A stretch of DNA of 64,000 bases from Paralichthys olivaceus (lineage: Eukaryota; Chordata; Actinopteri; Pleuronectiformes; Paralichthyidae), in assembly GCF_024713975.1 (NCBI RefSeq), contig NC_091100.1, positions 14,888,001-14,952,000 of the forward strand. The letters are read 5' to 3'. The notes under the pieces are model-generated. The model was not told the origin of the DNA, did no database searches, and saw only the letters and a program-made list of their open reading frames with translations. The position numbers were made by a program, and so were the translations under genes. This document shows positions 21,706 through 62,900 of this stretch, one piece after another. Each line of letters begins with the position of its first letter. Position 1 is the first letter of the stretch.

Positions 21706-24700
21706 TTAAGCGAAATCAAACTGATTTGGCGATGACAACCTGGGAGGGATGTATCTGTTCTTGGCCATGACTTCATACACAAGTTCGTTGGCGGCACTTC
21801 TTGCTCTTTTGCTTCTAGTCCATTGTTTCAACTGCAGGGAGTAAAATGTTAAAATTACAATCTGCATGTTAGAAAACCTGTTAAACATCATATTTGAACA
21901 TCAACTGACAACATTTAAAGGTCCAATTTTGTAGAGTGAGATTCACTTGTCTTCTGACTATGAAGCAGATCAAGGAGCTACATAAGTAAAGATAAAGCAT
22001 GCATCACAAAATGCTCAGTTTCAGAGAAACGAACACAACCTGAGTCAAACACTGAACCGAGCCGTCAGGACTTCTGTGACTTTGTGATGTCACTGGCCTC
22101 AACTCCAGCACACACTTACCAACAAAACAGGATTTAGCTTCTCAGAGTATTTACCCCGAATTTGATTTGTATTCTACTAAAGAGTCCTATCAGTGTTTTA
22201 TTCAGCCTCTCCAAATATTTAGCTTTTTCAACATTTTTCTTCGACCGATTGGTGGATCAACTTCATCTCACAGTTTTTTTATTTCATCTAGTGTGTTATT
22301 TGATTTATTGATTTGTTATTATTATGACTGTATATTTTGGGGATGCAAACTTCCATCCACTGCCTGGAGTCAATTGCTGATTATAATATCTTTTCAGCCG
22401 CCGCAGCATATTTCACCAGATCAGTGAGAATTTTTTTTAAGATAAATTATATTTAACTTCAGACATTGTTAGGAAAAAATTTAAACAGTACAACAATAAG
22501 TTTGAACACATGCAGACAGAGCATCAAGTAGTTTTAGACGTATTCAGCAACAACAGAGTAAACCTGATATCTTCAGCAGCAGTCCTGTGGGACAAGTGTG
22601 ATAAACTGATAAATTGTGTTAACGCACAATAAATCAATCTTTGCAGATATGCAGCAAACAGTTTGCAGTGCTTTGGTTGAGGTGAAAAGATTGAAACCAG
22701 AATAATCAAGTTTGATCAAGCACAGAGTTTTTTCCTCGTGGTCTGAACTCACCTTCAGAATCAACAGGACGAACATGATGGTAACAAATATGCTGATGAC
22801 ACAGGCGACAGCGATGACTAACACCAGAAGTAGAATATTCTCATCGTCGTGGGGGTGAGGCTCCTCTGTTGGACTGAAACAGGGTTCTTCTCCATGAAAA
22901 AAGGCAAGAAATGGATTACAGCAAAGGAAATGTACTGTCCCCATGGAAATGTTGCAATCCCAACACAGAGAGAGCGTATGTGGCACAGCTAATTTTGGAA
23001 TATTAAACTGAATTGTACATAAATCTGAAGGATAGGCCATGTGGAATTAAAATAAGGTGCACATTAAATATATACATAAAGACATAGGAAATGTTTTGAA
23101 TATATTTAATATACTCATCCTATATTCACTTTCACCAAAGAGGTTTACATCAGCATTGTTTGTTTGTCTGTTAATTTGTAGGATTAAATGAGAAGTACTG
23201 GACAGATTATTACAGAATTTAGTGGACGGATGCAGTATAGGTGAAGGAAGAACCCACTAAAGATCTGAAATGTACTTGGGTGCAAGTCCAGAATAAACTA
23301 ATTAAACCAATTCTAAAATTGATATGAGGCCAATGGAGAGTCACATGCTCTCTTTGAGCAGATTTGATGAGGAGTCTGGCGTTTTAAGAACGTGAGATTG
23401 GACGTCATTTGACACTTTCTCACCAATCTCCCCAGGAATGGATGCACGAATCTAGATTAGATTTAAGATTTAAGGATGTGAAAACCAAGATTGTGTGAAA
23501 TTTGGTGCAGTTTGATTGAATTTAAGGAGCTATGAGGTCTTGTGAGTGCCATTCGAGTTCCTATAAATCTTGTTCTGCCAGTCACTCATAACTATAGTCA
23601 TAAAAATGATATATTGAAGGAAAATCTAGATTATTACCCGATGAATAATACCATAAATTCAAAGAAGAATTAAATGGATATCTCACATGAAGTCCTGTGT
23701 TGACTTTCCTGCACCTTGGCCTTACTGCGACACAATACCTGAGCTGATAAAGTTAAAACCATGGTTAAAACGCACCTGATATTCTAAGTATGTAGACGTT
23801 GCATACAACGTCAGTCGTGGAAATACTTTTGTAGACACAGCTGTAGATGCCAGAATCCTTGGCGACCAGATTGCTGATGGTGATGGTGTGGTTCCTCAGA
23901 GATCCTATTTTCTCAACCCTCTCTTTGTAGCCGATTCGTGGGGTGATTTTTTCATATCCAGAGCCATTGAAATAGTGCAACACCTCCTCCTGCGGATTTA
24001 AACCATGATACAGATACATCCCCCTGAAGCCGTTGATGCTGCTGGGACATTCTGCAAAGCAGCACTCTAAGGTGACGTTCTCACCGGGCTCTCGCCACAC
24101 TACAACATCCCCTGTGATTAACAACAAAAGACAGTGTGATCAGAGGGTTTAAGGACAAACCACAAGACATAGACATCTGTTTTATTTTAACACTGACTGG
24201 ATAATCACAAGACTGTTAAACAGCTTTTACCTACAGGCCGTCAAAACCATCACCCCAACCCCACCCATACCTTCTAAGGACTGTTATACAACACACATAC
24301 ACACACACACACACTCCCCTTCACATTCTATCCAAGAACTGTTTTAAACAAGACACACACACAAGAAAACATTCACAGTTTTTTTCTGTAGCTGTAATTT
24401 TGCACGGAATCATTATGCACTAATACTCAGGTGGACTTTCAGGTTGACTGTCCTACTGTACAAATTGCACTGTTATTACGCTGTTACACTTATGTTTATT
24501 CTCTTTAGCTGTTTTTTTCATAAAATATCTACTTTTAGATTTTTACTTCTTGATTCTTGTTCGGATTTCTAAAAATCAGATCTGCTAAATAATTGTCACT
24601 GTTTCAACTGTTGGTGACAATCTTGAACATTGACAATAAAGGATTCTGATTCTGATTCTGATAACTTTCTGAATGTGATGTAATTGGAGTGTAATTGTGA

Positions 24701-24899
24701 CTTTTATTGATGAAAAGTACACAATATATACATACAATATTCAATATATATGTAATATATATTTATTGTTTATAAGACTTCAACTTCTCTGCTGATATGA
24801 CCTATCTTATCTATCTATCTATCCATCCTACACCACTAAAGCTATGAGATATTTATTTTTTATTAGACTTAGTTTTCATATCATATCATCTATTGTGTC

Positions 24900-24971
<72 letters not shown>

Positions 24972-25316
24972 ATTTTACCATTTGTATAGCACTTACCTAA
25001 ACTAGGTTACAAAGATAAATGAATGAAAAAAAGGCATTCAATTCAGTTCAGTTTTAAGGGCCAAATCGTAACATAAAAAGGTCAAGCCCTTATCAACCCT
25101 ACTACTATGCGATGTTCTAATTCCGATGGTATGTAACTATGCAAAGTGTTGTATAAAAAGTTTATTATTATCATCATCATGATAATACGATGAATGTTGT
25201 CGCAGATAGTCTTGAGCTGCAGAAAAACCTTCCCTCTCACGTTAAGAGAAGTGAATGGACTCACCTGTGTTTGCAGAAATACAGAGGAACACTGTAAACC
25301 AGCTGAGCAGCATCAT
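21706..25316 (-). CDS. cd7: CD7-like single-Ig-domain receptor
   Basis: Type I membrane receptor resembling T/NK-cell CD7. Coding exons: 25265-25316, 23776-24111, 22753-22889, 21706-21831; 651 nt, about 216 aa (human about 240). Residues 1-17 are a signal peptide. The V-type domain (about 18-129) has cysteines at 34/35 and C109 in DSGIYSC, plus N-glycosylation sites at N29, N66 and N91. The usual core tryptophan is replaced by NGFRGMYL; human CD7 has a similar G-L-R-G-I-Y-L there. A short acidic/proline stalk (130-147) replaces the longer human repeat stalk. The membrane helix is 148-174. The 41-residue tail contains Y194-E-V-M, a YxxM PI3K-binding motif like human YEDM, and LSSPNQ at 207-212 near the C-terminus, as in human CD7. 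This double match in the tail is why I call CD7 and not a generic Ig receptor. Two ATGs are adjacent (25316 and 25313). The exon 3 acceptor could lie 3 nt further in; both choices keep frame. Confidence 0.85.
24631..24664 (+). repeat. LINE-type 3' tail with (GATTCT)n
   Basis: GACAATAAAGGATTCTGATT and further TCTGATTCTG units are typical of the 3' end of L2-like elements in fish. About 200 bp upstream (from about 24400) may be the rest of the tail, too diverged to call. It lies in intron 1 of the CD7-like gene. Confidence 0.55.
24900..24971. repeat. (AAT)n microsatellite
   Basis: Pure AAT/ATA run of about 70 bp inside intron 1 of the CD7-like gene. Confidence 0.95.
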
Positions 25317-29231: not shown

Positions 29232-32200
29232 TCACATCTGGAAGCTGTTGTCGATTGCATCCAGACCTGTAAAAGTGAAAGTGAAAGCGTGAATTAGATC
29301 TTAAGGAATGCATGTGAGAACTGTTCTAAAACAAAGCTGAGTCAAAATACTGTCATTGAGACGTACCCTCCTCCTCGCCTGGATCGCTTCTCAAATGGCC
29401 ACCTGGAAAAAAAAAATGTAAAAGAGCATTACAATGACTGGTCATTCAAATACTGCTGATGAGTGGCTGAGCCCAGGTTTCCACAATCCCCAGCACAGTT
29501 TGATTCCCCGTGATAAGCAGCGTAAGAGAGAGCTGTTCAACCTGTCCGTGCACACTCTCTTAACAATGTCACTGTTGTGCGCTCGTGGACAGGTTGGGTT
29601 GCTGGTGGCTCTGCACTGCGTGAAGAGTGCGTGAATGAAGCTCCCCCACAGATCACATAGGAAACTATGATGACTGTGATGTTTCTCTGTATCATAGTCT
29701 GCCATGCCATATTTCTTAACTAAAGTTTTTCACTGAACTTTGATGTGTTTTCTCACTGTAAGCAAATGAGACATACAGATCATGATACAGAGTGCGCTGC
29801 CAGACTGCCAGCTTTGAGTCTAGACAGTGACGAACATGTGTGTGAGTATAAGCTCGAAAGAACTAGGAGTGAGATCGGAAACTGTGGTGCGTGTGTGAGT
29901 TTTATTTCATGTTGTTTCAAGTGTTATGTCTAGAGGAAGTGACCGACCCACGTGTTCTCTATGTTCACCACTCAAAAAAAAGCTTCCTTTTAATAGCGAT
30001 GAAAGTACCTTAATCTTAGTTAGTTTTAATTCAGATAAATCATCAAACGTCAGCAATTAATCTGTCAATCTGACGGAGTATAAGGGCCTCTTATAGAGAA
30101 TAAAGTCATAATTTTAAAAGAATAAAATCCTAATATTACAAGAATAAAGTCATAATTTTATGAGAATAAAATCATAGTTTTAGGCAACGTGTCATTTTAG
30201 AGTGATATTATATCAGAAGAACAGACTGATGCATCTTGTTGAGGTATACTATAATATGGGTTACTTTATATTATATTACATTAAATAATGAAATACTTAA
30301 TCTTTTGGCTCATCAGCTCCACATTATCAAATTTTTCTTCTTTCTTCTTGTCTTTATTTATTATGGCCCAAATACTTTGTCATAGTCAACACAGCAGAAG
30401 CTGATGTTCAGTTTCAAGCAGACAGAAACTTTATAAATCTATACACACACGGTCAGAAAGCCCTGTGTTTCTAAACATGGACGTACCCAAAATGGCTGCT
30501 TTGGATTGTCTCCGAGCATCTGTCAAGAAAATGGTCCAATAATTAACAGTTGCTACACCCCCCCTATTATTTTTTCTCCTTTCTTGGGTTGTATCTGTAG
30601 AGAAATCATATTTCGGTTTCATGTGTGCCGAGTATATATCATGGAAGTGACAATAAATCTGATTCTAATTTCTATGATGTGTAATAAATTAAATGTAGTT
30701 TGTTAGAAACACCAAGTAGCAGCAACTGTAGATTTTAATTGTACTTTCATGTGTGAAGTCATTACTCAAAAAGATCGGAATGATTCCTTTTGAACAGAAC
30801 TCATAAGAGTGCTTGTGTAGGTACTCACTCTGACGTCGGCGTCGAAGAAACAGCAGGGCCACCAACAATCCAACGATCAGTGATCCAATAACCACCACAG
30901 GAGCGATGATTTTGGAGGCTGCATCAAACTCTTTCTCTCGTCCTTGGGCTGCATGAGTTCAAATAAAAGTTTTTTCATGCTCTAATACATAAAGTGAGTC
31001 ACAATTGCATGAACTGGTGTGAATATCCATCTGAAAATATTTACTTTTATTTTTATCCCAGAGGGGTCTGCAAAGTTTGGACATGGGGTCAGATTTCAAA
31101 GACTTGCCCAGTCAAGCACAGTGTTGTTTCTTTGTCAGGTAAATTAAATTAACTTTTGATGACGATCAGATTAACAGATGTGTTTCAGCATGTCTGTTCT
31201 GTGAAGAGCGTTTGAAAAACAGCACAATGAGGGTTGGCTCCAGTTATGGATAAAATCAACAGACTTCAGCTAAGAGGAGGAAGAACATTGTTCAACTAAA
31301 CCCTCTGCTGTTTTTTTGGTGGTTTGATTTTTACAGGATATGTGTGAATTTCCTGGTCTTTCAAATCCCTTTTGGTTTCTGTTGGAAAACTGGGGCTATG
31401 TGGGAGTCCAACCACACAAAATATATTAGAAGTGGCTTGTGTTTCAAGTTCCTGTCAGTTGTGCAATCCTAAACAATGCTTTGCTTATGTAATAGTGATG
31501 ACATCTGTGTCGCTTCAAATTTCAGTTAAAACAGGGCCTTAGGTGCTACTATGGCTGATATGGCTTTTGTGTGCAGCGCATGGTGTAAACGGTGTGTGGT
31601 GGATAGTGCTGGGAAAAACTTACTTCCTAGGCTTGGTATGTCTTCTACTACAAATATGGCCTCTGCCTCTCTGCTGCCACTGGCACTATACACCGCACAG
31701 GTATACTTGGAGAAAATGGATCCTCGCAGCAGAGGCAGCTTGCTGGACAGGTGAAACAGACCCCTCTTGTCTAATTTTTCCTCCATTTTAGAGCCTTTGG
31801 TCCACTCCGTGTCATGCTCCACAATCCAGCGAATCTCCCCTTTTGGGTAGCCACCGTGCGATTCACATGTCAGGACGCCATCTCTTTTTACGGTAATCTC
31901 TTTAGGGTCGGAGCGTATAGTTGGTTTACTGTATTTGGCTGCAAAAAGAAAAAGGGGAGGCACAAGTGGTCGTTCAGCTGAACATATAAATAGACGGGCA
32001 GGATCCAACAGCAGTGATTATTTGTCACAGTGAAAGCGAAAATAAGGAAACACACCAATTGACAGTGCTTAGCTGCAAGGAAAGTCCCTCAAACTCCCAA
32101 CAATCAACAGAAAATTAAATCTTTCAAAAAGTAAATTGTCTACGTAACAAATTAGTTTACAGAAAAAGAAAACTACTTTACACAGGATAAAGCTTCGAAA

Positions 32201-32766
32201 TGAGTTAGATGCATCTGTGTCAAAGAGTTGTAAAAAATGTTTCAGCCGTCAGCCACAGCCGGAGTCTCTAACCTGTGACTTTGAGGTTGATGTCCCCCAC
32301 AGCATCGCCACTGTTCGTTATCACCATGCATTTGTAAGCTCCAGCATTTGCCATCGTAGTGTTGGCGATGAGCAGGGACACGTTCGTGTGCTTCTTGTTC
32401 AAGGGCGGCTCAGCAAGTTGGTAGCCTGGAGTCTTATTCATTTTCCCTTTGTTAAAAAACACTAAGGGCCCCTCCAACCCCTCTTTCGTCCAAGAGATGG
32501 CTCTGATTCCTGCATCTGTTGCCCCGTTGGCAGCTTGGACCCAACACTCCAGCAGTGACTGCTGGCCATACTGTCCAACGCTTTCAGTCTTGCATTGCAC
32601 GGTAAAAAGAACTGGAGAAGAAAAAGGGTCAGGATGAAGATAATATCAGCACCGAGGAGCATTTCACATTTGAAATGCACAGATAATGTTAAATCTTACC
32701 TTCCTTTGCTCCGACACATATGACAGTGAAAATGAAGAAGAGGATACCAATGGGGGCCATGTTCAT
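29232..32766 (-). CDS. B7-family-like membrane protein with V-type and C-type Ig domains
   Basis: Type I surface protein resembling B7 co-signalling ligands (CD80/CD274/VTCN1 group). Coding exons: 32700-32766, 32273-32611, 31624-31938, 30829-30948, 30487-30519, 29367-29402, 29232-29266; 945 nt, 314 aa plus stop. All six introns fall in phase 1, typical of immunoglobulin-superfamily genes. Residues 1-20 look like a signal peptide (IGILFFIFTVICVGA). Residues 23-135 are a V-type domain with C45, W63 and C117 in NAGAYKC. Residues 136-235 are a C-type domain with C160, the motif GGYPKGEIRW, and C216 in KYTCAVYS. Residues 254-275 are a transmembrane helix followed by RRRR. The cytoplasmic tail of about 39 residues is spread over three tiny exons and has no tyrosine, so no ITIM or ITAM. 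NAGAYKC plus the following ITNSG resembles B7-H4/VTCN1, while the GYPK text resembles PD-L1, so I do not assign an orthologue. A butyrophilin-like protein is the main alternative. It lies upstream of, and on the same strand as, the CD7-like gene. Confidence 0.87.
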
Positions 32767-35815: not shown

Positions 35816-37319
35816 TTTGTTATATTGCTACTGATGAACATGATATGAAATGAATGATTATTTGTCCGAACCTAAGTTCAACCACATCACTGCGAGAGAT
35901 TCCCTTTAAGTTTGAAGTGTGTGAAACAGTGTCAGACTGGATTTGCTCAGGACAAATTCAACTCTGCACTGTCCGGCAAACCACAACTCAAAAGCTGGAG
36001 ATTACAAACCCCCGACATCTCCGGGGAAATTATGAAAACCACTCATAGACAGTGTTTACATGGCATGCACACACCGACTGACGAGAAACACATGGTCCAC
36101 TTCACCGTTCACTACACTGTCCATGCAGCGTGTGTCCCGAGAAGTGGTCAATCTATGTAAGAGATGACTGTAAACCTATCACACAATAATACAACAATAA
36201 AAAGACTTACAGTACACGCTCCTCCACAGACAGACACGCACACATCCGAAGTTTACATCGACACTGACGCTGGCAAAACTTACTTTCACTTTCATCATGA
36301 GTCAGGAAGACGAGGCAGCTGCTGATTATAGAGTAAAGGTTAGAACAAGGGTCGGGCTTCTTTGTTGAAGATTTAAATTTAGATTCAACATTTAAACAAT
36401 AAGATTAAGATTTAAAGGTTCAGTATGTAGAATTTAGTGACATCCAGTGGTGAAGTTACAAGTTGCAGCTGAATACCCCTCACCTCACCCTCACCTTCCA
36501 AACATGAAAGAGAACCTGTGGTAGACTCCAGCTGGACTACTGTAAAAAACATGGTGAGGACCCGCTCCGATGTTAATGTAAAGTATTTAAAAATCTAGGG
36601 TAACAACAACAACAATTCGTACAATTTAGATGAAACACACTAGTGAAATAATTAATAATTTATCCTTTAATGTCTGCCAATAGATCATTTTCACCTAAAT
36701 CTTACACACTGAACATTAACAAATATTTTTCACATTTAGATGTAACGGTTAACATTGAGAATCAAGATTTGGCTTTTGCATTTACGCTTAAATTTGATTT
36801 TTATATTATCTTTAATTACTTTCTGAGAAAAAGAAGTAAATATGACAAAGTTAGCAAATATTGCTATTTTTACTTTGAAAGCACAGCACTATTAAATCAG
36901 CATGTGCAGCTTCACAATCGGTGCCCTACACCACTGAACCAGGTGTCTTGCTGGAACGAGGTTGACAGTTTTTTAGCCCTTTTGAGATGTGTGATAAAAC
37001 AATGGTTTGATCCACATATAGGATAAAAATAAACATTAAATATAAAAATAAAATAAACACCACTCATCCTGGTTAAACCTGTCTTGTACCACATTTGTGT
37101 TACATCCAGATTAATGTTGGAGACTGCATTCCCTCATGTGCCTGTGACCAACGACCCCTTACTTCCTCTTTACCCTATCCTACAGCAGACCTCAGGACTG
37201 GACTCTGGACTTCCTGCAACACTATAAAAACAGTGAAAAGTTTGTTTGCTCAAATCCATCCTCCTGTTTATACTGGCCATTACAAGAGCCCTCCCTAATG
37301 CACATGATGACGCACATTG
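35816..37319 (+). repeat. Near-perfect 1504-bp tandem duplication, copy 1
   Basis: Identical by eye to 37320-38823 at a constant offset of 1504 bp, except A at 35936 versus G at 37440. Both ends share the short sequence TTTGT/TTGTTT, so the junction has microhomology. The unit is non-coding and contains one MITE copy at 36414-36717. Spurious open frames of up to 118 codons occur in both copies. Confidence 0.95.
36414..36717 (-). mobile_element. MITE-like element, copy C (reverse orientation)
   Basis: Begins AAAGGTTCAGTATGTAGAAT and ends CTTACACACTGAACATT. Its left part (CATCCAGTGGTGAAGTTACA, GCTGAATACCCCTCACCTCA) is the reverse complement of the right part of copies A and B. It is about 304 bp, shorter internally than those copies. 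Confidence 0.7.
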
Positions 37320-38823
37320 TTTGTTATATTGCTACTGATGAACATGATATGAAATGAATGATTATTTGTCCGAACCTAAGTTCAACCACATCACTGCGAG
37401 AGATTCCCTTTAAGTTTGAAGTGTGTGAAACAGTGTCAGGCTGGATTTGCTCAGGACAAATTCAACTCTGCACTGTCCGGCAAACCACAACTCAAAAGCT
37501 GGAGATTACAAACCCCCGACATCTCCGGGGAAATTATGAAAACCACTCATAGACAGTGTTTACATGGCATGCACACACCGACTGACGAGAAACACATGGT
37601 CCACTTCACCGTTCACTACACTGTCCATGCAGCGTGTGTCCCGAGAAGTGGTCAATCTATGTAAGAGATGACTGTAAACCTATCACACAATAATACAACA
37701 ATAAAAAGACTTACAGTACACGCTCCTCCACAGACAGACACGCACACATCCGAAGTTTACATCGACACTGACGCTGGCAAAACTTACTTTCACTTTCATC
37801 ATGAGTCAGGAAGACGAGGCAGCTGCTGATTATAGAGTAAAGGTTAGAACAAGGGTCGGGCTTCTTTGTTGAAGATTTAAATTTAGATTCAACATTTAAA
37901 CAATAAGATTAAGATTTAAAGGTTCAGTATGTAGAATTTAGTGACATCCAGTGGTGAAGTTACAAGTTGCAGCTGAATACCCCTCACCTCACCCTCACCT
38001 TCCAAACATGAAAGAGAACCTGTGGTAGACTCCAGCTGGACTACTGTAAAAAACATGGTGAGGACCCGCTCCGATGTTAATGTAAAGTATTTAAAAATCT
38101 AGGGTAACAACAACAACAATTCGTACAATTTAGATGAAACACACTAGTGAAATAATTAATAATTTATCCTTTAATGTCTGCCAATAGATCATTTTCACCT
38201 AAATCTTACACACTGAACATTAACAAATATTTTTCACATTTAGATGTAACGGTTAACATTGAGAATCAAGATTTGGCTTTTGCATTTACGCTTAAATTTG
38301 ATTTTTATATTATCTTTAATTACTTTCTGAGAAAAAGAAGTAAATATGACAAAGTTAGCAAATATTGCTATTTTTACTTTGAAAGCACAGCACTATTAAA
38401 TCAGCATGTGCAGCTTCACAATCGGTGCCCTACACCACTGAACCAGGTGTCTTGCTGGAACGAGGTTGACAGTTTTTTAGCCCTTTTGAGATGTGTGATA
38501 AAACAATGGTTTGATCCACATATAGGATAAAAATAAACATTAAATATAAAAATAAAATAAACACCACTCATCCTGGTTAAACCTGTCTTGTACCACATTT
38601 GTGTTACATCCAGATTAATGTTGGAGACTGCATTCCCTCATGTGCCTGTGACCAACGACCCCTTACTTCCTCTTTACCCTATCCTACAGCAGACCTCAGG
38701 ACTGGACTCTGGACTTCCTGCAACACTATAAAAACAGTGAAAAGTTTGTTTGCTCAAATCCATCCTCCTGTTTATACTGGCCATTACAAGAGCCCTCCCT
38801 AATGCACATGATGACGCACATTG
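37320..38823 (+). repeat. Near-perfect 1504-bp tandem duplication, copy 2
   Basis: Second copy, directly abutting the first; see the mismatch at 37440. Very recent origin or an assembly duplicate; the single difference argues weakly for a real locus or two alleles. Confidence 0.95.
37918..38221 (-). mobile_element. MITE-like element, copy D
   Basis: Copy of the preceding element produced by the 1504-bp duplication. Confidence 0.7.
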
Positions 38824-48819: not shown

Positions 48820-51798
48820 TTAAAGAGAGAAGCCTCCGGTTTGTTGTTGGAACACATCAATCGTATCTTCATCCTCCATTTCTAGCTGTAAGAGATAGTC
48901 AGACCGAGTGTGCTTGTTAATAAAGTAAGACATAAGCATTACATTCCAGTGTGATGACATAACTTAATGTGGGTAGAAGTAGTTATATGAAAAAGCAGAA
49001 TTAGGCATTTTCACTTCAATTTAAGTAGATCTATGACAGGGCAAACTGAAAGTGACTTAGTGTTTCAAATATGATGTGAGCAAAAAGATGAAAAATTAAA
49101 TTAAATTAATCAAGACAAGAGGCAGCACAGCTGTCTCTTTGTACAGTATCAGTAACACATCAGTGAAAACACTGGAATGTGCACCTTGTCACTATTTAAA
49201 GTGAAAGATGAGCTTGAGAGTGGGTGTTTAAAGGCTTGTTCACATCCTGGAACTCTTTCTACACTTAGAATTGATTGTTAGTTTGACTGGTTTTTTAGTT
49301 CATTTAGTTTATTTGTCAGACAGATTATGCCAAAAACGTCTGAACCGTTTTCCACAAAACTTGTAAGGATGGAGCATGACCCTGGTAAGAACTCACAACA
49401 TTTAGTGGATGCAGATCAGGAGTTGTTCCATTAGTTGTTTCACATGTTCTTTAACTATATCTATGACGATTATTAATTTTGGCTTTTCTTGTAGTTGTTG
49501 TTTTATATTTCCACTACATTAATGTAAAGGATTATTTAGCCTTGGAGGCGATATGTGCTCCACTGACTGCCACTGTAGTTATAAAACTAAGTATGTTAAT
49601 GCTAATACTTACATTTTTGTACAGTTATTTTGTAAGTTAAGCTACATGCAGTTTGTTAAATGATTGAAAGTACATTTATTTAACCCGTCAACACTGTCAA
49701 CCACTGAATTGTGGTAACATTTTTAGTTTCAAATGTATTTTGCAAATAGAAGTAACACTGCTAAGGTTTTCACTTTTGGTAATCCAGCTCTCACCATGTT
49801 TTGTTTTTTTTTAAATAACACAATATATGTTCCACCCTTACAACTTACAAAGAATAAAATCTACATCATACACAGTGTCTAAAGTAGCAAAACTGTGAGG
49901 TGAATATATATCCTCTTATTCATCAAAAGCTCATGATAACAAAAATTGATTCGGGAGGTGATTGTTTGTAGGTTGAACAAGTGGGTGTATCTTACCTGTG
50001 AGGGCGTGTCTGTTTCATTGATAGGCTGACCATCAAATCGAAATCGTATTTGCCTCATTGCCAGCCCCTGTAGACAGAGAGACAAACCTTGTTTACTATA
50101 TTGAAAATTATCCATGTTACACCCAGAGGTTAAAAGTGCCCAAACATTTTCATCCCTGAATCCAGCATACATGTTTGTGTGATATAGTGAGCGATTCATA
50201 AAGGGATAGTTCACCAATTTTTTTAAAATTAACTCATTATCTACTCACCACTATGCCTATTGGAGGGGAGTGTGAAGTGTTTGAGTCCACAAAACACTTT
50301 TGGAGTTTTTGGAAGGTGACTGATTCTTCAGACATAAAATACGACAGAAAAATAAACAAACGTAAAATGCCTTCATACTGCTACTGTGGTGTCATTAAAG
50401 TGTCTCTAAACCCTGACATTCAGATTAAACATGTTTTATTTTCCCCTTTTCTTTAGCCTAAAAGACTGCTGTTATCCACGCACAATCAAATGCTCCAGAG
50501 GAGGATATTAGAGGACATTTAGGCTAAAAACATGGTGTAAATGACACAGTTTCACACTTGGAAGACACCACAGGAGCAGTATGGAGGTGTTTTCCTTTTG
50601 TGTTTTTCTGTTGTTTTTATACGTTTAAAGAAGCACTCACCAACATGTTTTGTGGACTTAAACACTTCACCAACTGTCCCTTTGAGGCTCACAAAGTTTT
50701 CCTCCACCCAATGACTTATCAGGAGTGGCATCACACTGGTGTAGTGGTCTCACCTGTCGTTCACAGTAAGCTTTCATCAGTTTGCTGAGAGGAGTGTGCC
50801 TTTTGATCTTGAACTGCACCACTGAGCCATCCTGGCCTGCCACCTTCAGATTGATGTGCTCATTGTTCTCCGTCTTCACTCCCTCCTGAAACACAGTGTG
50901 CAGAAAGTCAAGGAAATGCGATGCAGGGATGAACACGACGCCTTTTAAAATATGACCTCAAACATTTTTTAAAGTGCGTGCACCCCCCCCCAACCCAACC
51001 ACAAAACCCCATCAGCCTTTGCAGACCACTGAGGATTCATGCACAGTGTGTACCTCATTGATTTAAAACGTCAGTGTCAAAGAAGTCCAATACTAAAGTG
51101 AAGATATAAGTGAATCCAGTTCCTCTCTGTCTGACTGCACTAACCTCAGAATCTGCGTGATCGCTGGGCGCAGAGAGGACACATTACAACTTCAACATTA
51201 GCATTAGCATCTAGCGTTGAGCAATCGACAATGGCCTGCTAATTGTGCTCATTCCCCACGACCTCACCAAGGAGGAAAACGCATCCTGCACAGATCAACC
51301 CCTCCTTCTCCCGACACGGTTTAGGATTCACTTTGTGAACAGCGTAGTTTAACTATTTAATATTGAGTTAACTTGTTTTTTTATCAGATCATTCATTTGG
51401 TCCCATGGCGGTGTCGTTGTGCTACTCTCTCTTGTTGACGTTGTCTATGTAGAAAACAGTCGCATCGCTTCGTGCTAAATGACCATCACTCATACTGATA
51501 TCAGCTTTAGTGCAAGTGTGGAAACAGCGTATTCAAGATGACCACAAGTTGGTATTTATTTCTCAACGCCCGGGTCTCAAACACGCTAGCTTATTATGCT
51601 AACGTCGTTAGCTTGTTAGCTCGGCAGCGCTGTTGGGCGGTAAGCTCTATGTAACTCCGCGGTCGTTGACGCATCGGTGACACACGCCGGTCGTTCCGTG
51701 GTGTAAACCGAACAACGATGGCGCAGGGATGAGCTGCACACAGCCACCAAGCCCCCAGAACAAAAGCCACTGCTCACCTTGGGTTTCTCGTCTGCCAT
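48820..51798 (-). CDS. sumo2: SUMO2, small ubiquitin-related modifier
   Basis: Ubiquitin-like modifier conjugated to lysines of mainly nuclear proteins by the SAE1/UBA2 E1 and the UBC9 E2. Coding exons: 51778-51798, 50754-50885, 49996-50067, 48820-48885; 291 nt, 96 aa plus stop, no frame breaks. Exon 1 encodes only MADEKPK. Exon 2 supplies the chain-forming site VKTE with K11 and the start of the beta-grasp fold. Exon 3 reads [20 protein letters not shown]. Exon 4 ends QQQTGG followed by FSL, so SENP proteases would need to remove three residues to expose the Gly92-Gly93 pair; the human SUMO2 tail is two residues. SUMO2 and SUMO3 are hard to separate by sequence alone; position between jpt1 and gga3 decides for SUMO2. 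All junctions are GT-AG. Intron 2 contains a MITE-like repeat ending 70 nt from exon 2. A polyadenylation signal lies about 430 nt after the stop. Confidence 0.96.
50200..50683. mobile_element. MITE-like element in sumo2 intron 2
   Basis: Starts AAAGGGATAGTTCACCAA and ends CACTTCACCAACTGTCCCTT plus T; the outer 12 bases (AAAGGGAYAGTT) are inverted repeats. The internal order TCATTATCTACTCACCACTA, GAGTCCACAAAACACTTTTG and GCTACTGTGGTGTCATTAAA is a teleost element family I recognise. About 484 bp, non-coding. Confidence 0.7.
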
Positions 51799-53999: not shown

Positions 54000-56900
54000 C
54001 TATAGAGCGCCCCATCTGTCAGCAGGAGGGAAATCATTAACCTCCCCCACCTCTGTGAGCAGTTGATCTCCCAATGTGACCGTCAGCTTATATCTCATCC
54101 GAACCTTCTCCTGCAAAACACAAACATGGAGTTAGGAATCTTGCTGGAATATACGAGATCTTGAGCACAGGCAGTCACTGACTACATTTACATAGATGTT
54201 AGACCTTATTCAGAATAAGACATTTCATTGTGTGCTAATAGAATATTTGATTCAAATCCCATGACTCACATGATTATGTCCAACACATCATGTTTAAATT
54301 TTTCTTACGATTTCAAATTCCCAACCTGAAATACTTTAATATGCCATGCAACCCTATAACATTTTGGGTGTTTTCTTTCTAATTTTGCAAAAGCTACAAC
54401 GATTTTTCCATCTCGTTTCCAAGCAGGGCACGTGTTGACAAGCAGTTGGTTACTTTCATACATGTCGATGTCAAAACGAAAACTCCAATAGGACGTTATA
54501 ATGCAATTAAGATGTAAATGTATTTATAGTGCAAAAGGTGTCGTATGCCACGTGTCTTAATTAGACTATTGCTTATTTTGAGTATGACCTTATTCAAGAT
54601 AGTTTATTCAGAAATACTGTTTACATAGCAGTGTCTTATTCAGAGTATTTTCTGCTTCGGGTTAATATTGGAATATTGGTGTCTGTGTAAATGTAGACAA
54701 CGATCAATACATGATCAAAACATGCTGCTTGTCATGTAAAACCAAAAAGTGGTAATACTGTGCTGAACTGTATGATCTCAACCACGGACATGGAGTACAT
54801 GAATGTTCTGTCAATTAATACATGACTTTTAATGCAGTAATAAATATTAAAAGCTCCTGAGCTTTACCTTGAGAGGATTGGCGAGCAACATGACCTGAGT
54901 AATGGCAGCAGGGGGAAAGATTGGATTAAAAGGAGCCAGCTCTGTCCCTGAAGGTGGCTGCAGTCTCACTTTCATCGTCTGGAAAAGTGGCAGAGCAGAC
55001 ATCCATGTGCATTAAACAGAAGCAGCAACCCACTGCAATTTCATGAGTCAAACATCTGCCTAAAAATAGCACACTGTGTGGCTCCCAATGCAGTCACAGA
55101 GCAGGTTTTACCTTGGGTACAGCCGCCTGCAGGGCAACATTCCTGATAGGTTGTGGTGCTGTGTTAAGCATGGACGCCACTATCACCAGTACGTCCGGCC
55201 TGCCTGGTGGACAATCACTAGCAAAGTGCAGCAGGACACGAACGCCGTTTTTGTCATACGCTGTCACAGGACACACTTTACCTAAGATTCAGGGCAAAAA
55301 GAGGAAGGTAAAGGTGATTATTAGATATTGATTAGGCACATGGGAACCTCACTGCGTTCAACTATATTAGTCAGCTAATGATGATTTTCAATAAAAACAT
55401 TCATCCTTATTGGTGTGATGGGGAAAACATCTCCTACTATTCATCAAGTTTGCCACACAGTGGCAGTAAGGGCTACAGTTCAGTATCACAACCACAACCT
55501 TTCTTAAATAGAAGGTCTTCTATCAAGGTCTGGAGATCAGGCAAAATACAGCACTTTAAGTTAAATAGTTTTGAACTACTGAGCAGTCAAGCTGCAAAGA
55601 TTTAGTCGATGAATCAAGCAAAAATAAAAAATAAAACATTAAGAAAATCTTAAAAACAGACACACTAGTTAAAAGCCCTTGTCCTGGAGCTCACTTGGTT
55701 TGATGGCATCCAAGGGGACAAAGACATTGGCCAGGGACACTTCCTCTCCCCTGCCGGGACTGGCCTGGCTCAGAGGGAGGATGGGGGACAGAGACCGTAA
55801 CAAGGGGCTGTCATCAGCCTGACTCTTAGCAGGTGGGGGAGCGGAGCCTCCATGCACCTCTTCTACGAGGAGTAAGGCTGATGTTGTGGGACACCAACAC
55901 TGTTGTGGGACACCAACACTGGAAGACAAAGGAGCAGGAGAGCACAGATCCTCACTCTTCACCAGCAAGCTGCTAAAGTCCATCACACCAGGTGTACTGT
56001 GTGGATAATTCAGAGAGAGAAAAACATTACAGTATATATTTGATTCAATGATGATAGAAATATATATCGATTACCTGTGTTGACAAAAAAATAACAGTAT
56101 ATAACAACAAATATTGTGGAGTCAGGTTAGATGTATCAAGGATATTTTGATATTTTTCATAATATGATTATATGTGAGTTACTCAAGAAATAATGCAGAG
56201 ATCTTGAGGGAAAATGTAGAGCAGCTGTCGTGCTGTCACTTAATGTTGCATCACATTTTGATAAAATGATGCGATGGAAAAGTAGGTTCTGGTTTAATGA
56301 AGAGACTTTTCTAAAAAAGAACATTCACCACAGCCTTTTACCATCTGCTCTGAGTGATGCTGCTTAGTTTAAAGGCCTGGGACATTGCTTAATAAAACAC
56401 TGAGGGGTCCCATATGGATCCCTTTGTATCAATGTGTAATGGAGTCCTGTGGATCGATCTGCATTTGCAAGATATTGGTTCAGTTGCACTTGAAGTTTCA
56501 TGGAGCAGAACAGAGAAATCGCTGATGAAGCATTTAAGTCACTTTTAGTTTTTAGACAACTGCTCTGGTCAGTCAATGCAAAATTTAAAACACTGAAAAA
56601 AGTGTTTTTTTAAATTAAGATCATCCAAGATAGTAAGAGTGACAGATGGACAGCTTGGTGTTTATCCATATTCGCTCCTCACTTTTACCTCATGGTTCAA
56701 ATACTACTTACTTTTTTGGACTTCCCAGATCCAACAAGGCCAGGTCTTGCAGGTTGTTATTGACAAAGGTTGAAGGAGAGTGGGAAGCACTGAGTGAAGT
56801 GGAGACCTGTGGAAAGACGTGGGGGGCTGAGGCCGAGGGCAAGGCCATGCTGAATGATTGAGTCTGAGCCGAGGAGGTCAATACTGAACTGAGGGACTGC

Positions 56901-59900
56901 GGGAATAAGACCGTTGTCGTTGAGAGAGATTCTGTAAAAACCGGAGGTGGTGGCAAGACAGGGCCAGGGAAGCTTAAGGTGGAGGCAGTTGGAGAAGGCT
57001 TTGCAGGGTTGAATGGGGCTGCAGCTGCAGAGAGGGTATTTGGAAAAAGTGAATATGTAGAAAATGTAGGACCCGAGGATGAAGTTGTGTCAAAGAGATG
57101 CACATCCTGCCTGGGATCCTGGAAACATGGCAATGCAAAACATTGCTGGTTAAAATATTAGATCATAAATAATTTATTGAAATAGAAAAAAAGATGACAA
57201 ATAATTGCTGTGGTTTGGATTGATTTACTTACAGGAGCAGGTTCATTGAGACCTGCAAATAAACAGAAATGTCTACATGAACATGTTGCATCTACGTTTT
57301 GAAAGATATGCCCAAAAATAATTAATGCTGTCATGAAAAACATCATAAAACTGCATCTTACCTAAGGATAGCAGCTCTTCATCCAGCAGAGAGAAAGCAG
57401 CAGAGGGTGAACTGGGGCTCGGGGACAGAGGCTCAGCAGCAGCAGACCCGCACAGCAGGTCAGCAGGAAAAGACAGAGAAGATGTCGGAGGTTGTTTCTC
57501 TGGCATAGAAGGGCTGTTGACATCCAGACCCACCAGGTCAATCAGAATCTCTGACTGGTTTGTGCTGCCTGACAGATTGAGGAAAACAATACAGCACAAT
57601 GAAGATGCATTCATTTTAAACTCAGATACTATATCCCTAAATCTGTCAAGTAAAATTAAAGGGTCAGTTCACCCAAATACTTGAGCAATGGCAAACTACC
57701 CACATGAATAGATCCAGTTTTAACACACTTAGAGATATCTAATGCTCAGGAGATACACACTGAGAGAAATGCTTACTTCCAGAATAATCAGAGACCCTGC
57801 AGGTGTTGACCATTATACCATTGGCACAATTTCTTGCAAGAGACAATCCTCTCTCATCCACTCAGAAAGTGGTTAATGCAATGTGTTAAGTCTTTCATCC
57901 AATGTAACTTTGACTGTAACAGAATAATTTGTAAAAACATAATGGAATATAAATGGGGTGTCCAATAACTGAGAATTGTGAGGGGAGAAAAAAATCTGGG
58001 AAAAGGTTATCTTGTTTGTTTAATTTTGCATCTTCACATATCTATGTTCCTTTTGAGATGTGACAACAGAAAGGAGATGTGATGACGTGTGATCTGTTAC
58101 TATGGTCCGTGTGATATATTCTTTCCACATTGCTACCTATGTCAAAACAGGATCTCTGTCTGTATATTCTTAATTTGGGACTGCACAAACTGGAACTTGT
58201 AAAAACAACACAATTACATTTAAGGGAATTGAAAATATGTCAGAACCTGTAATACCAAATGGCAAAATTATGACCATTTTCTACTGCGCTGTTCTATTAC
58301 TTAAAATGTACCTCGTCTGACTGATGTTCGTGGTTGTTGTGCTTCTTCACTCTCTCCGTTGATAGTCTGTCCTTTCATAATCGTCTTGTAGGAATTAATC
58401 ACATGGGACAGGTCATCACTGGCCTGCAGGATGTCTCCTGATAAATACAATTTTAATGGTTCAATCAAGATGAGGTTCATGACTTTCTGAAACAACAATA
58501 AACATGGTGACTAAATGTAAGAAGTCTTTGAGCAGAATATCTCTCAATCATGTGGGCACTCTGGTCTGACAGGCGGTCGGTCGTACATCAACACAAGGCC
58601 TGTGTGAATCATGACTCAACCTTTTTATTCTGTATAAAATGCAAGAGCTTTTTGAATTTCTCACCCAAGCTGCTGTCATTGTCCTCAGTCTCAGTAGCAA
58701 GTTGAGACACAGTTTGCCTGAGTTTGTCACAATCACCATACAACTCCTGAGAAGAAAGAAAAAAAAAAAGATCACTGAATTTCCACATCTTAAATATAAT
58801 TTAGACAGAGGATATAAAAAGAAAATTATGTCACTTAAGACTTATGTGAAATGTGTTCACTTATGTGAATGACGGTGATGACCTCAATCCCGCGGTAGGC
58901 ATCACATGACCGGGGTATTGCGGTAATGTGGTTACCGTCACAGCCCAACTGTTATCACTTGAGATCAGATCTCACTTCTCCACTGCAAATAAACACAGAC
59001 CTAATTTCTGTTTGCAGAGATTTTTCCCCATTTGAAAAGAAAACTTAATAGAAGTCATTATGTGGCGATCGATGTGGATATTGGGAGGGTGGCCACAAAG
59101 AAAATCAATGTATGGACACTGACAAGAGTAAAAATGCTTTTGATTCATTAAAATTGTAGGAGGTAAGAGGACGTCAGCTGGTTAGGCCCTTTATATGTGG
59201 TCCAGCAAAAAGAATGTGGCCGCATGTGTTCCAGACCACCTACGAATATCATTGTGCTTGGATCTCAGGCTTTATTGAGCATGGATTTGGATGAATCCGA
59301 CCTTATCTCAGAATAAATCTTAATAACAGGTGGGAATGGGTTCATGGGTCTGTTTCAATTGCTTCATACAAGGTTAAATTGAGCAGGAGCAAGTTACTGT
59401 TAACCCATCTGAAGCTGTATGAGCAAGATCAGGACTTTGTAAGTGTTTCCAGAAGGGTAAATAGATAACAAAGAAATGACTGAATGAATGAATTTGTTTC
59501 AAAAGGTCATTTAAGCCTCATCTGCTGAAGAACCAACCCTGATGAGCTCCTTGTCTTCATCCGTGGACTCTTCTGGGCTGAAGTGTGTGAGCATCTCATT
59601 AAGGAGTTTGACACTGTTGTTGACAGCGTCCAGTGTGCTTTTTTGTTTTGTCACTCTCTGTGTTCTCACATCGTCCTATGACAAGAAAAAAAAAAAGAAG
59701 GTTGAGTTGCATTTCTAAATGGACCTCATTAAACTGGAGTGTCAGTATAAACCTGTGTGGTGGGGTTTGTAGATAAAAGCTGAGAAATGCTTCCAATTGG
59801 CTTCCAATTTCTCGTGAACAGAAGCCATCCCAACTTTGGCCAAATTAAAATAACACAAACAGCAAAATCGGAACATTTAATTTTGACACTGACACACCTC

Positions 59901-62900
59901 CTTCACCATGTTCTTGATGAGCCGATTGGCCTCTTGCAGATCTTCAGGCTTCTTGCTCTTTAGCAGATCTGATAATCTCTGCAGGGATGAGAGAACCGTC
60001 AGTGAGTAAACAATCGAGCTCGTCTCCCACAGATCACCCAGGCACAAGCAGCAAAGTCACATCAGCTCCCGAATTCAGAAAAAACAAACTCCATCCATAT
60101 ATCAACTGCCGTCAACACAAAGTAAGCATGCAGCAGTGACCTGTTATGGCGAGGTGAAACCAGGGGGGCAGTGGGAACAAGAAAAAAGCAACAAGACCAG
60201 TTTCAGTGATGTCAATGCAAATTAAATATGACCCATTTTGCTGTGGGATAGCATCAAATGAATGACAAGCAACAGAGGGGAAGACAGAAAGGACAGAGAA
60301 TGATTTGATTTGAAACCCATGGAGGAATGAACACTTTGATTTATTTTGTTTTATTACTATTATTCAGTTTCTTCTAAGACTTTATTTCTAATAATAATGA
60401 GCTGCATTCATAAAAATGAATGCAGCAGTTAAATATGGAGACCATACACTCATTTTGACAAAAGAAACTTAGTTAAGTTTAGCATCAAACACTTTATAAC
60501 CTGAGTTTTGATCTGTATGAACTTTTTAAGTGTAAGCTGAATTTTTAAAAACAGTTATGTGATGGACTATTTCTTCACTGGGGGCAGTGACTTGTAGGAG
60601 CCAAGCTAACAATGCATATTACATCACATTTTATGGACATATATGACTAAAGAATCAATTTACTCATCTAACCATCGCCACAAAAGCAAATAAAGCAACT
60701 TAAAAAATGTCAAACTACTTCTTTAATAGTCATGAGCAGTGGATGATCTGGATATGATGGCTAAATAGGCAGGCACTCGAATACTTTGACCCCACAGATA
60801 CAAAACACTAAAAACTAGGGCTGAGTTTATCGATATCAGTACAGATATTTTTACAATTTGTGCGTGCAAGTGGCAGCGATTACAAGATCAGATCCCAAAA
60901 TGATTCTTCTTACCTTGCTCTTCTTCTCGTCATCAAACACAGGATTCTTGGGTCGCGGAGAGGGTGATGGTATTAAAGTGGCATCGAGAGGTATTTCTGG
61001 ATCAGCTAAAACAATACCTACAATAAAAATAACAACAGACAGCTAATGGAAACTGGAAATGACAATTTTTAGTAATTCATGCTAACAAATTATCTTACAA
61101 GGAACAAGACAGTCATAACAGACTGTTCATTAAGCATTCATATTGTTTTACCATGTTATTATATCTCATCTGCATTTTTCAACAGCTGTTTTAAGTGGCT
61201 GGTGTCTCACCCTGAGACTTGAGCATCTGATAAGCTTCACAGATCTTTGCTTCATCTGGCAGAGACACAGTCCAACTGTACAGCAGCTCGATCACTTTCG
61301 ACTTCACCTTTTCTGACACTTTGTCTCCCAGGTACTGAAAAACAATTAATGCAAAACTTATTTGACACCAAACGTCAATTCAAGAAAACACACTCCCATC
61401 AGAAGCTGTTTGAACATTTATATTACTTACTTTGGGTGAAACCACCTTAATTAATTCATTTAAAAACCTAAATTTCCCGACTTCATTGTGGAACCTTTGC
61501 CCACAGTTCTTCATACAAGCCTCGAGGACCTACACATGAAAACAAGTGTAAATAAAATAATAATATCTGCGGACTGTGCAACAAAAGGCAGAATGACAAT
61601 GGGGAAATGATTACGCTACAGACCGTTAACGCTTGTATCGCCTCCCACTCCTGAGGGGACTGAATCTTGTGAGCCAGCAGTCGAACGGATATTTGTGGGC
61701 TAGAAAAAAAAAAAACAGAGCGAAACATTTCCACGCAAACTCAATAACAAAAGGGAAAATTCAGAGCCTGGGTTATAAACAGCTTTACAATAAGCTCCAT
61801 GTGTTCACCACAGCGAGGACACAGACACAGTAATAATAGATGAGAGGGACACAACGTTATGGGACAGATTGACTTAATTGAATGAATGTGACCATACCCT
61901 TCCAGCTCCTTATTGATTTGGTCACAGAATCCCATTATGTACTCCCAGTCTTCCTGTCGGTTGGAGGGGTTGGTGGCTCTGTCTGAAAAGAAAAGGGGAG
62001 AGTGTCACCTGACCTTGCTGCTGACAGCACATTTATCACTCACTGTCACACACTCTCAACTACATATTCTGTATGCGGTAAATAACACTGAAATATCCAT
62101 TTCGCCAATAACTACTTATACTATTTCTTTGCACTACTTCTTTATTGCACTACTTGTACAGCTTAAACATACAGAGGATCTGATTTGATTTCCCATTCAT
62201 CATTCTATGTTTATTTTTTGCACCATTCTTAGCTTAATGTGCAGAATAGTAATGAACAGTAATGTATGTTAGTTTACGTAACGCTACGCTAAACAATACT
62301 CCTTTGCCAAAGATATACATACTTATGGTAAACTGTGCAAGGGAAAGGTAATAAATCATGACATTTGATATTATTGGTTTCTTTCATATCATATTATTTA
62401 AATACCATGTGCATGTATTACTTACTCCTTATTCATCTCTACTTACTGCTACTTGTACTAAGTATTAGTTTCACTGTATCATGCAACTTATAATACACTT
62501 TATTCACTGTATTCTATTATTGGTACATGACCTTCCTTCGAGGTGTGTCTAGTCTTATCTTATCTTCTATGATTTCAACCTCTGTCCCTCCGTAGACCAG
62601 CTTATAAAACAACCCAGACAGACATTAGCCACCATTTTAAACGTATTTTCTCTCAATCCTCCCTCTCGCTCCCTGCAGACACCCTGCTCCTGTTTGTTAT
62701 TGCTGCTTTACGTCCTGTTTATAATCTGGGTAAGTTAACGCTCCGGGCTGATAATGCAAATCCAGAGTGTGTTACCACGAGAACAGAGGAACGGAATCAC
62801 CCTCAACATTTATATATGTATGTTTTAGTTCGAGACACATGGAGACCAAGCGTCGAGGCTGATTAAGCTAGCGAACCGCCAGCAGCAGCCAGCAGCTGTC

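Follow-up and report, generated by a model that had tools for sequence, protein, structure and literature searches.

A very probable fish orthologue of CD7, with YEVM and LSSPNQ tail motifs, in Paralichthys olivaceus, and its probable duplicate

The stretch of DNA considered here (the window) comprises 64 kb, C8:14888001-14952000, of the 588-Mb genome of Paralichthys olivaceus, which is assembled in 25 contigs. Running down its minus strand from position 25316 to 21706 is a gene of four exons, with GT-AG borders and phases 1-1-0, which join into one open frame of 651 nt (216 aa) encoding a signal peptide, a single V-set domain, a membrane helix, and a cytoplasmic tail. Exon 1 (25265..25316; ATG at 25316, donor CAG/gtgagt, phase 1) provides the start codon and, as judged by eye, the signal peptide. 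The single V-set Ig domain is encoded by exon 2 (23776..24111; acceptor atcacag/GGG, donor CAG/gtgcgt); it contains NGFRGMYL and five cysteines and lacks the core tryptophan, there being no tryptophan between the two Ig cysteines and only one in the domain as a whole, near its start. Exon 3 (22753..22889; acceptor at 22889, donor AAG/gtgagt) supplies a stalk of about 17 residues and the transmembrane helix, read by eye as NILLLVLVIAVACVISIFVTIMFVLLIL, and exon 4 (21706..21831; acceptor ctgcag/TTG) supplies the tail of 41 residues, with YEVM and LSSPNQ, and the stop codon. These features agree with an initial annotation of the sequence, which had described a single-Ig receptor on this span with NGFRGMYL, YEVM, and LSSPNQ, a missing core tryptophan, a 41-residue tail, and a four-exon, 216-aa model. 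The last of these is reproduced with the exon 3 acceptor at 22889; the alternative at 22865 would give 208 aa. We prefer the longer form because exon 3 of a related gene on contig C5 (L017, described below) is likewise 137 nt long and also begins with EE. That the gene might instead be a decayed copy without a product seems to us extremely improbable, given that the four exons contain neither stop codons nor frameshifts and that every splice site is consensus. Within intron 1, at 24900-24970, lies a TAA repeat of 23.7 copies with a 100% match.

A B7-family gene with the orientation of the CD7 gene is located about 5 to 7 kb upstream of it (30700-32645, minus strand); in this gene we read by eye a V exon in frame at 32645-32271, a C domain at about 31940-31640, and a membrane exon in frame at 30958-30689. 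The best PDB match of its V and C domains is CD276 (E 5.8e-23), and tblastn of the two domains against 180 kb of C5 gave no match at E 0.1. Farther along the minus strand are a SUMO gene (49882-50957; one exon over the Pfam cut-off, a second under it) and a GGA gene (54850-62004; adaptin-ear exon over the cut-off, VHS and GAT pieces under it), both named by eye. Their human counterparts, SUMO2 and GGA3, are presumably located at 17q25.1. CYBC1 and FN3K, which we take to be the neighbours of human CD7, lie on C21 and C5, respectively, and neither is on C8. The window also contains a direct repeat of 300 nt at 100% identity (35816-36115 and 37320-37619, spacing 1504 bases); the presence of one and the same 124-aa frame at 36652 and again at 38156 points to a tandem duplication of greater length, with an assembly artefact as a further possibility.

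The Ig domain establishes the superfamily of the protein (Pfam V-set, E 3.8e-9) and hints at its identity. In a phmmer search of 177,635 distinct PDB sequences, the best match of the window protein was T-cell antigen CD7 (12hp_C, E 7.2e-5), first of 633 matches at E 10 and aligned through NGFRGMYL/GGLRGIYL, with a small margin over the runners-up, which were antibody fragments (scFv, E 1.3e-4) and myelin P0 (7.1e-4). In the region of the usual core tryptophan, the window protein and human CD7 both read R-G-[MI]-Y-L, and the R, G, and L are identical in a second C5 relative, L026. The human CD7 sequence used in the full-length comparisons is the same as PDB chain 12hp_C over the aligned part of the ectodomain. 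With the window protein this sequence gave a single collinear BLASTP alignment that spans the Ig domain through LSSPNQ (pairwise E without composition correction 3e-10; 2.5e-11 one way and 6.5e-11 the other). At E 10, tblastn of human CD7 against the window found two matches only, one in exon 2 (E 2.3e-6) and one in exon 4 (0.32). A PDB profile search with a three-sequence alignment placed CD7 first by construction, since the alignment contains CD7, and was not counted; SECTM1 was absent from the best 60 of its 7392 matches. The predicted structure of the Ig exon alone (pLDDT 44.5) was left out of fold searches.

At the genome-wide scale the same domain is less distinctive. A genome search with human CD7 at E 10, in which exons were scored singly, gave 46 matches. 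The window Ig exon came eighth (E 0.022); ahead of it stood five V exons on C20, one on C12, and the C5 gene L026. Of the six C12 and C20 exons we opened two (L023 and L024), and both were antibody light-chain V exons by eye. As to the refuting condition named in the initial annotation, best hits in another Ig receptor family, the PDB-wide best match was CD7, and within the genome the Ig exon was not the closest match to human CD7. In pairwise comparisons the window Ig domain scores 114 with a TCR-V-like exon, 108 with L017, and 93 with human CD7; for human CD7 and an antibody-like V exon the score is 102. Searching the genome with the window protein gave 54 matches at E 10, consisting of its own four exons, an array of 15 places on C12 (two members opened, both TCR-V-like by eye), C5:15339097 in L017 (35% identity, E 0.001), and a remainder of 34, all of them with E above 0.3. 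Because these genome and pairwise rankings favour other V exons, it is the tail and the overall layout that carry the assignment. Two further likenesses were seen: a second Pfam match of the window protein, Cadherin_C_2 at residues 151-195 (E 1.6e-5), falls below the Pfam cut-off, and a tandem array on the minus strand of C9 (15610307-15706575), with frames of about 800 to 900 aa, weakly matches the membrane stretch (E 0.4 to 1.3). The array looks like a protocadherin cluster (compare the Cadherin_C_2 match), and its match to the window gene is probably a chance hydrophobic likeness.

Aligned with the human CD7 tail, the window tail scores 47, a value equalled in only 1 of 20,000 tail shuffles. 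It has six identical residues near the C-terminus, separated from YxxM by nine residues in the window protein and seven in human CD7. When all stop-to-stop frames of 15 aa or more in the window and 180 kb of C5 are ranked (10,818 frames), the window tail is the top score; the next frame, which is unrelated, scores 46, and for this reason we regard the tail as persuasive only jointly with the Ig domain, the exon layout, and the position. The human tail used alone as a genome query returned no candidates, and a genome pattern search with guessed YEVM codons, which are not those of the window gene, found 172 places against 78 for the backward control and is without evidential weight. None of the papers covered by our literature search joined CD7 with LSSPNQ, and the search gave no printed confirmation of the human motif.

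We consider it very unlikely that the gene encodes some other single-V receptor with a YxxM tail, whether CD28H (TMIGD2)-like or fish CD300/pIgR-like, in which LSSPNQ would have arisen by coincidence. CD28H has a single V domain and is not known to carry LSSPNQ. V-domain scores do separate these families poorly, and for L017 the PDB search ranks pIgR first (E 6.6e-8, summed over domains); yet the PDB-wide best match of the window protein is CD7, and CD28H, of which the PDB may hold no entry, does not appear in the best 60 of the 633 matches. The YxxM motif is shared, as YEDM is reported from CD28H as well (PMC11599192); also against this reading are the six identical residues near the C-terminus at similar spacing and the rarity of equally good shuffled tails. 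The identification as CD7 with a YxxM and LSSPNQ tail, as first proposed in the initial annotation, is supported by the PDB search, the collinear BLASTP alignment, and the tail shuffles. We regard the window gene as very probably orthologous to CD7 and its product as a cell-surface co-receptor. We temper this assignment in view of the eighth place in the genome ranking, the small PDB margin, the empty tail query, the location of CYBC1 and FN3K on other contigs, and the presence of YEDM in CD28H.

The first of the two C5 relatives, L017 (also L029; C5:15337553-15340324, plus strand), encodes 204 aa in four exons with the same phases as the window gene, and its tail carries NNEVYEDM without LSSPNQ. 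Its BLASTP alignment with the window protein extends from the Ig domain through YxxM (E 4e-14 one way, 9e-18 the other). The tails themselves agree moderately, with 14 of 5000 shuffles as good for L017 against the window tail and 12 of 5000 for L017 against the human CD7 tail, where VYEDM alone is aligned. The position of the two genes is also alike: on both contigs a CD7-type gene is preceded by a GGA gene (minus strand of C8 at 14.948-14.950 Mb, plus strand of C5 at 15.303-15.305) and a SUMO gene (minus strand of C8 at 14.938, plus strand of C5 at 15.319-15.321), so that the transcriptional order GGA-SUMO-CD7 is the same on C8 and C5. Further GGA and SUMO copies occur on C5, C8, C10, and C12, and just these two pairs sit together. 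Based on the matching position, L017 is the probable genome-duplication partner of the window gene. Its own Ig domain looks more like pIgR, CD7 is absent from the best 60 of its 980 PDB matches, and the human CD7 genome query does not recover L017 at E 10. The gene structure, domain, sequence relationship, and motifs of the window gene, and the presence of a C5 relative in a matching place, are directly supported.

The second relative, L026 (also L046 and L045; C5:15472152-15469881, minus strand), is a CD7-like gene of 240 aa with phases 1-1-0, SLRGLHL, and PIYEEM. If the window gene were a CD7-family paralogue, this gene at 15.470 Mb could be the one-to-one orthologue of human CD7. Its Ig domain is in fact slightly closer to the human protein, both in the PDB search (top match CD7, E 1.1e-5 versus 7.2e-5 for the window protein) and in the genome search (E 0.0047 versus 0.022), and the SLRGLHL and YEEM motifs fit as well. 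The remainder of L026 fits less well: beyond YxxM its tail is unlike that of human CD7 (equalled by 715 of 5000 shuffles), LSSPNQ is absent, its F-strand cysteine is replaced by tryptophan, and its V-set match, at 18 versus 26 bits, lies under the Pfam cut-off. We consider this alternative improbable and retain the window gene as the orthologue. As a genome query the window protein misses L026 at E 10; pairwise BLASTP nevertheless gives E 8e-6. The substituted tryptophan of L026 is part of GLYMWEL, a stretch similar to GLYMWHL in human SECTM1. The GLYMW stretch common to the two scores 47, which none of 400 shuffles reached and which no other of the seven SECTM1 Ig comparisons exceeded; we note it as a lead only. 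A C5 frame at 15.451 Mb, read by eye as TNRC6, has no Pfam match, and this reading was set aside.

On one point our analysis departs from the initial annotation, which held that the stalk had been shortened. Between the Ig domain and the membrane there are about 17 residues in the window gene, about 19 in L017, and about 10 to 14 in L026, compared with nearly 50 residues in human CD7, where the stalk is a run of repeats resembling one another. Since three fish genes are short-stalked and the human stalk is repetitive, lengthening on the way to mammals is a simpler account than shortening in fish, and on these sequences the long human stalk more likely represents an expansion.

In its overall plan, then, the window gene resembles human CD7 (PDB 12hp and 12np, the latter containing CD7 plus SECTM1): one V-set domain, R-G-x-Y-L in the region of the usual tryptophan, a single membrane-spanning helix, and a short tail in which YExM is followed by LSSPNQ near the C-terminus. 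Besides the stalk, the two differ in their Ig-domain cysteines (five in the window gene, three in human CD7) and in their tails, which read YEVM and end in QFDFA in the window gene, versus YEDM and QYQ in human CD7. CD7 is described as marking T cells and as being targeted at present in T-cell leukaemia therapy. Fish CD7 is already in print, from zebrafish (Carmona 2017, PMC5340972; PMC11972081), tilapia (PMC8818700), turbot (PMC11659141), and pipefish (PMC10987989), and the window gene adds an intact-looking member. In zebrafish, single-cell data are reported to show T-cell-specific expression of an Ig-like gene with a relationship to CD7 (Carmona 2017, PMC5340972); this gene appears under the names cd7al and ENSDARG00000098787, which we infer to be one gene from the citation of Carmona 2017 in PMC11972081, and it is likened to the window gene, as a fish single-Ig gene, by its description only. 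What is new here is the probable C5 duplicate, in matching gene order, in which VYEDM appears to have been kept and LSSPNQ not.

CD7 is reported to recruit PI3K through YEDM, and the reference list of the same article names an association with type II PI4-kinase (PMC6099181). By analogy, the tyrosine of YEVM, once phosphorylated, would most likely dock the SH2 domains of PI3K p85, and such docking could deliver a co-stimulatory signal in T/NK-type cells, supposing that the fish gene is expressed in T cells. The LSSPNQF segment probably provides a second site of contact, one retained since fish and mammals last shared an ancestor. The tail partner at which the initial annotation hints for this C-terminal motif is inferred from two sequences, and the probable C5 duplicate does without LSSPNQ. 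With regard to the extracellular side, SECTM1 is described as a CD7 ligand with one Ig-like domain that adjoins CD7 in mammals; it is reported to be eutherian-specific, with zebrafish listed as without it (PMC4603632). Its ectodomain as a query on the Paralichthys olivaceus genome returned no candidates, and an empty answer of such a search carries no weight. To name the neighbouring B7-family protein as the ligand of fish CD7 would be a guess from its position.

One could combine these elements into a broader scenario, which we offer tentatively and on balance doubt: LSSPNQ would be a second, hitherto undescribed docking site of CD7 that acts beside YxxM, under selection since before the fish-tetrapod split; fish CD7 would have a ligand other than SECTM1, for example the neighbouring B7-family protein; and, after the teleost genome duplication, one copy would have kept both sites and the other YxxM only. 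If this were true, the two copies would constitute a natural test of the role of LSSPNQ. The probable duplicated pair, one gene with LSSPNQ and one without, makes a direct comparison possible, and, given that SECTM1 is reported absent from the lineage, a fish gene with both of these tail motifs would make CD7 signalling older than its known ligand.
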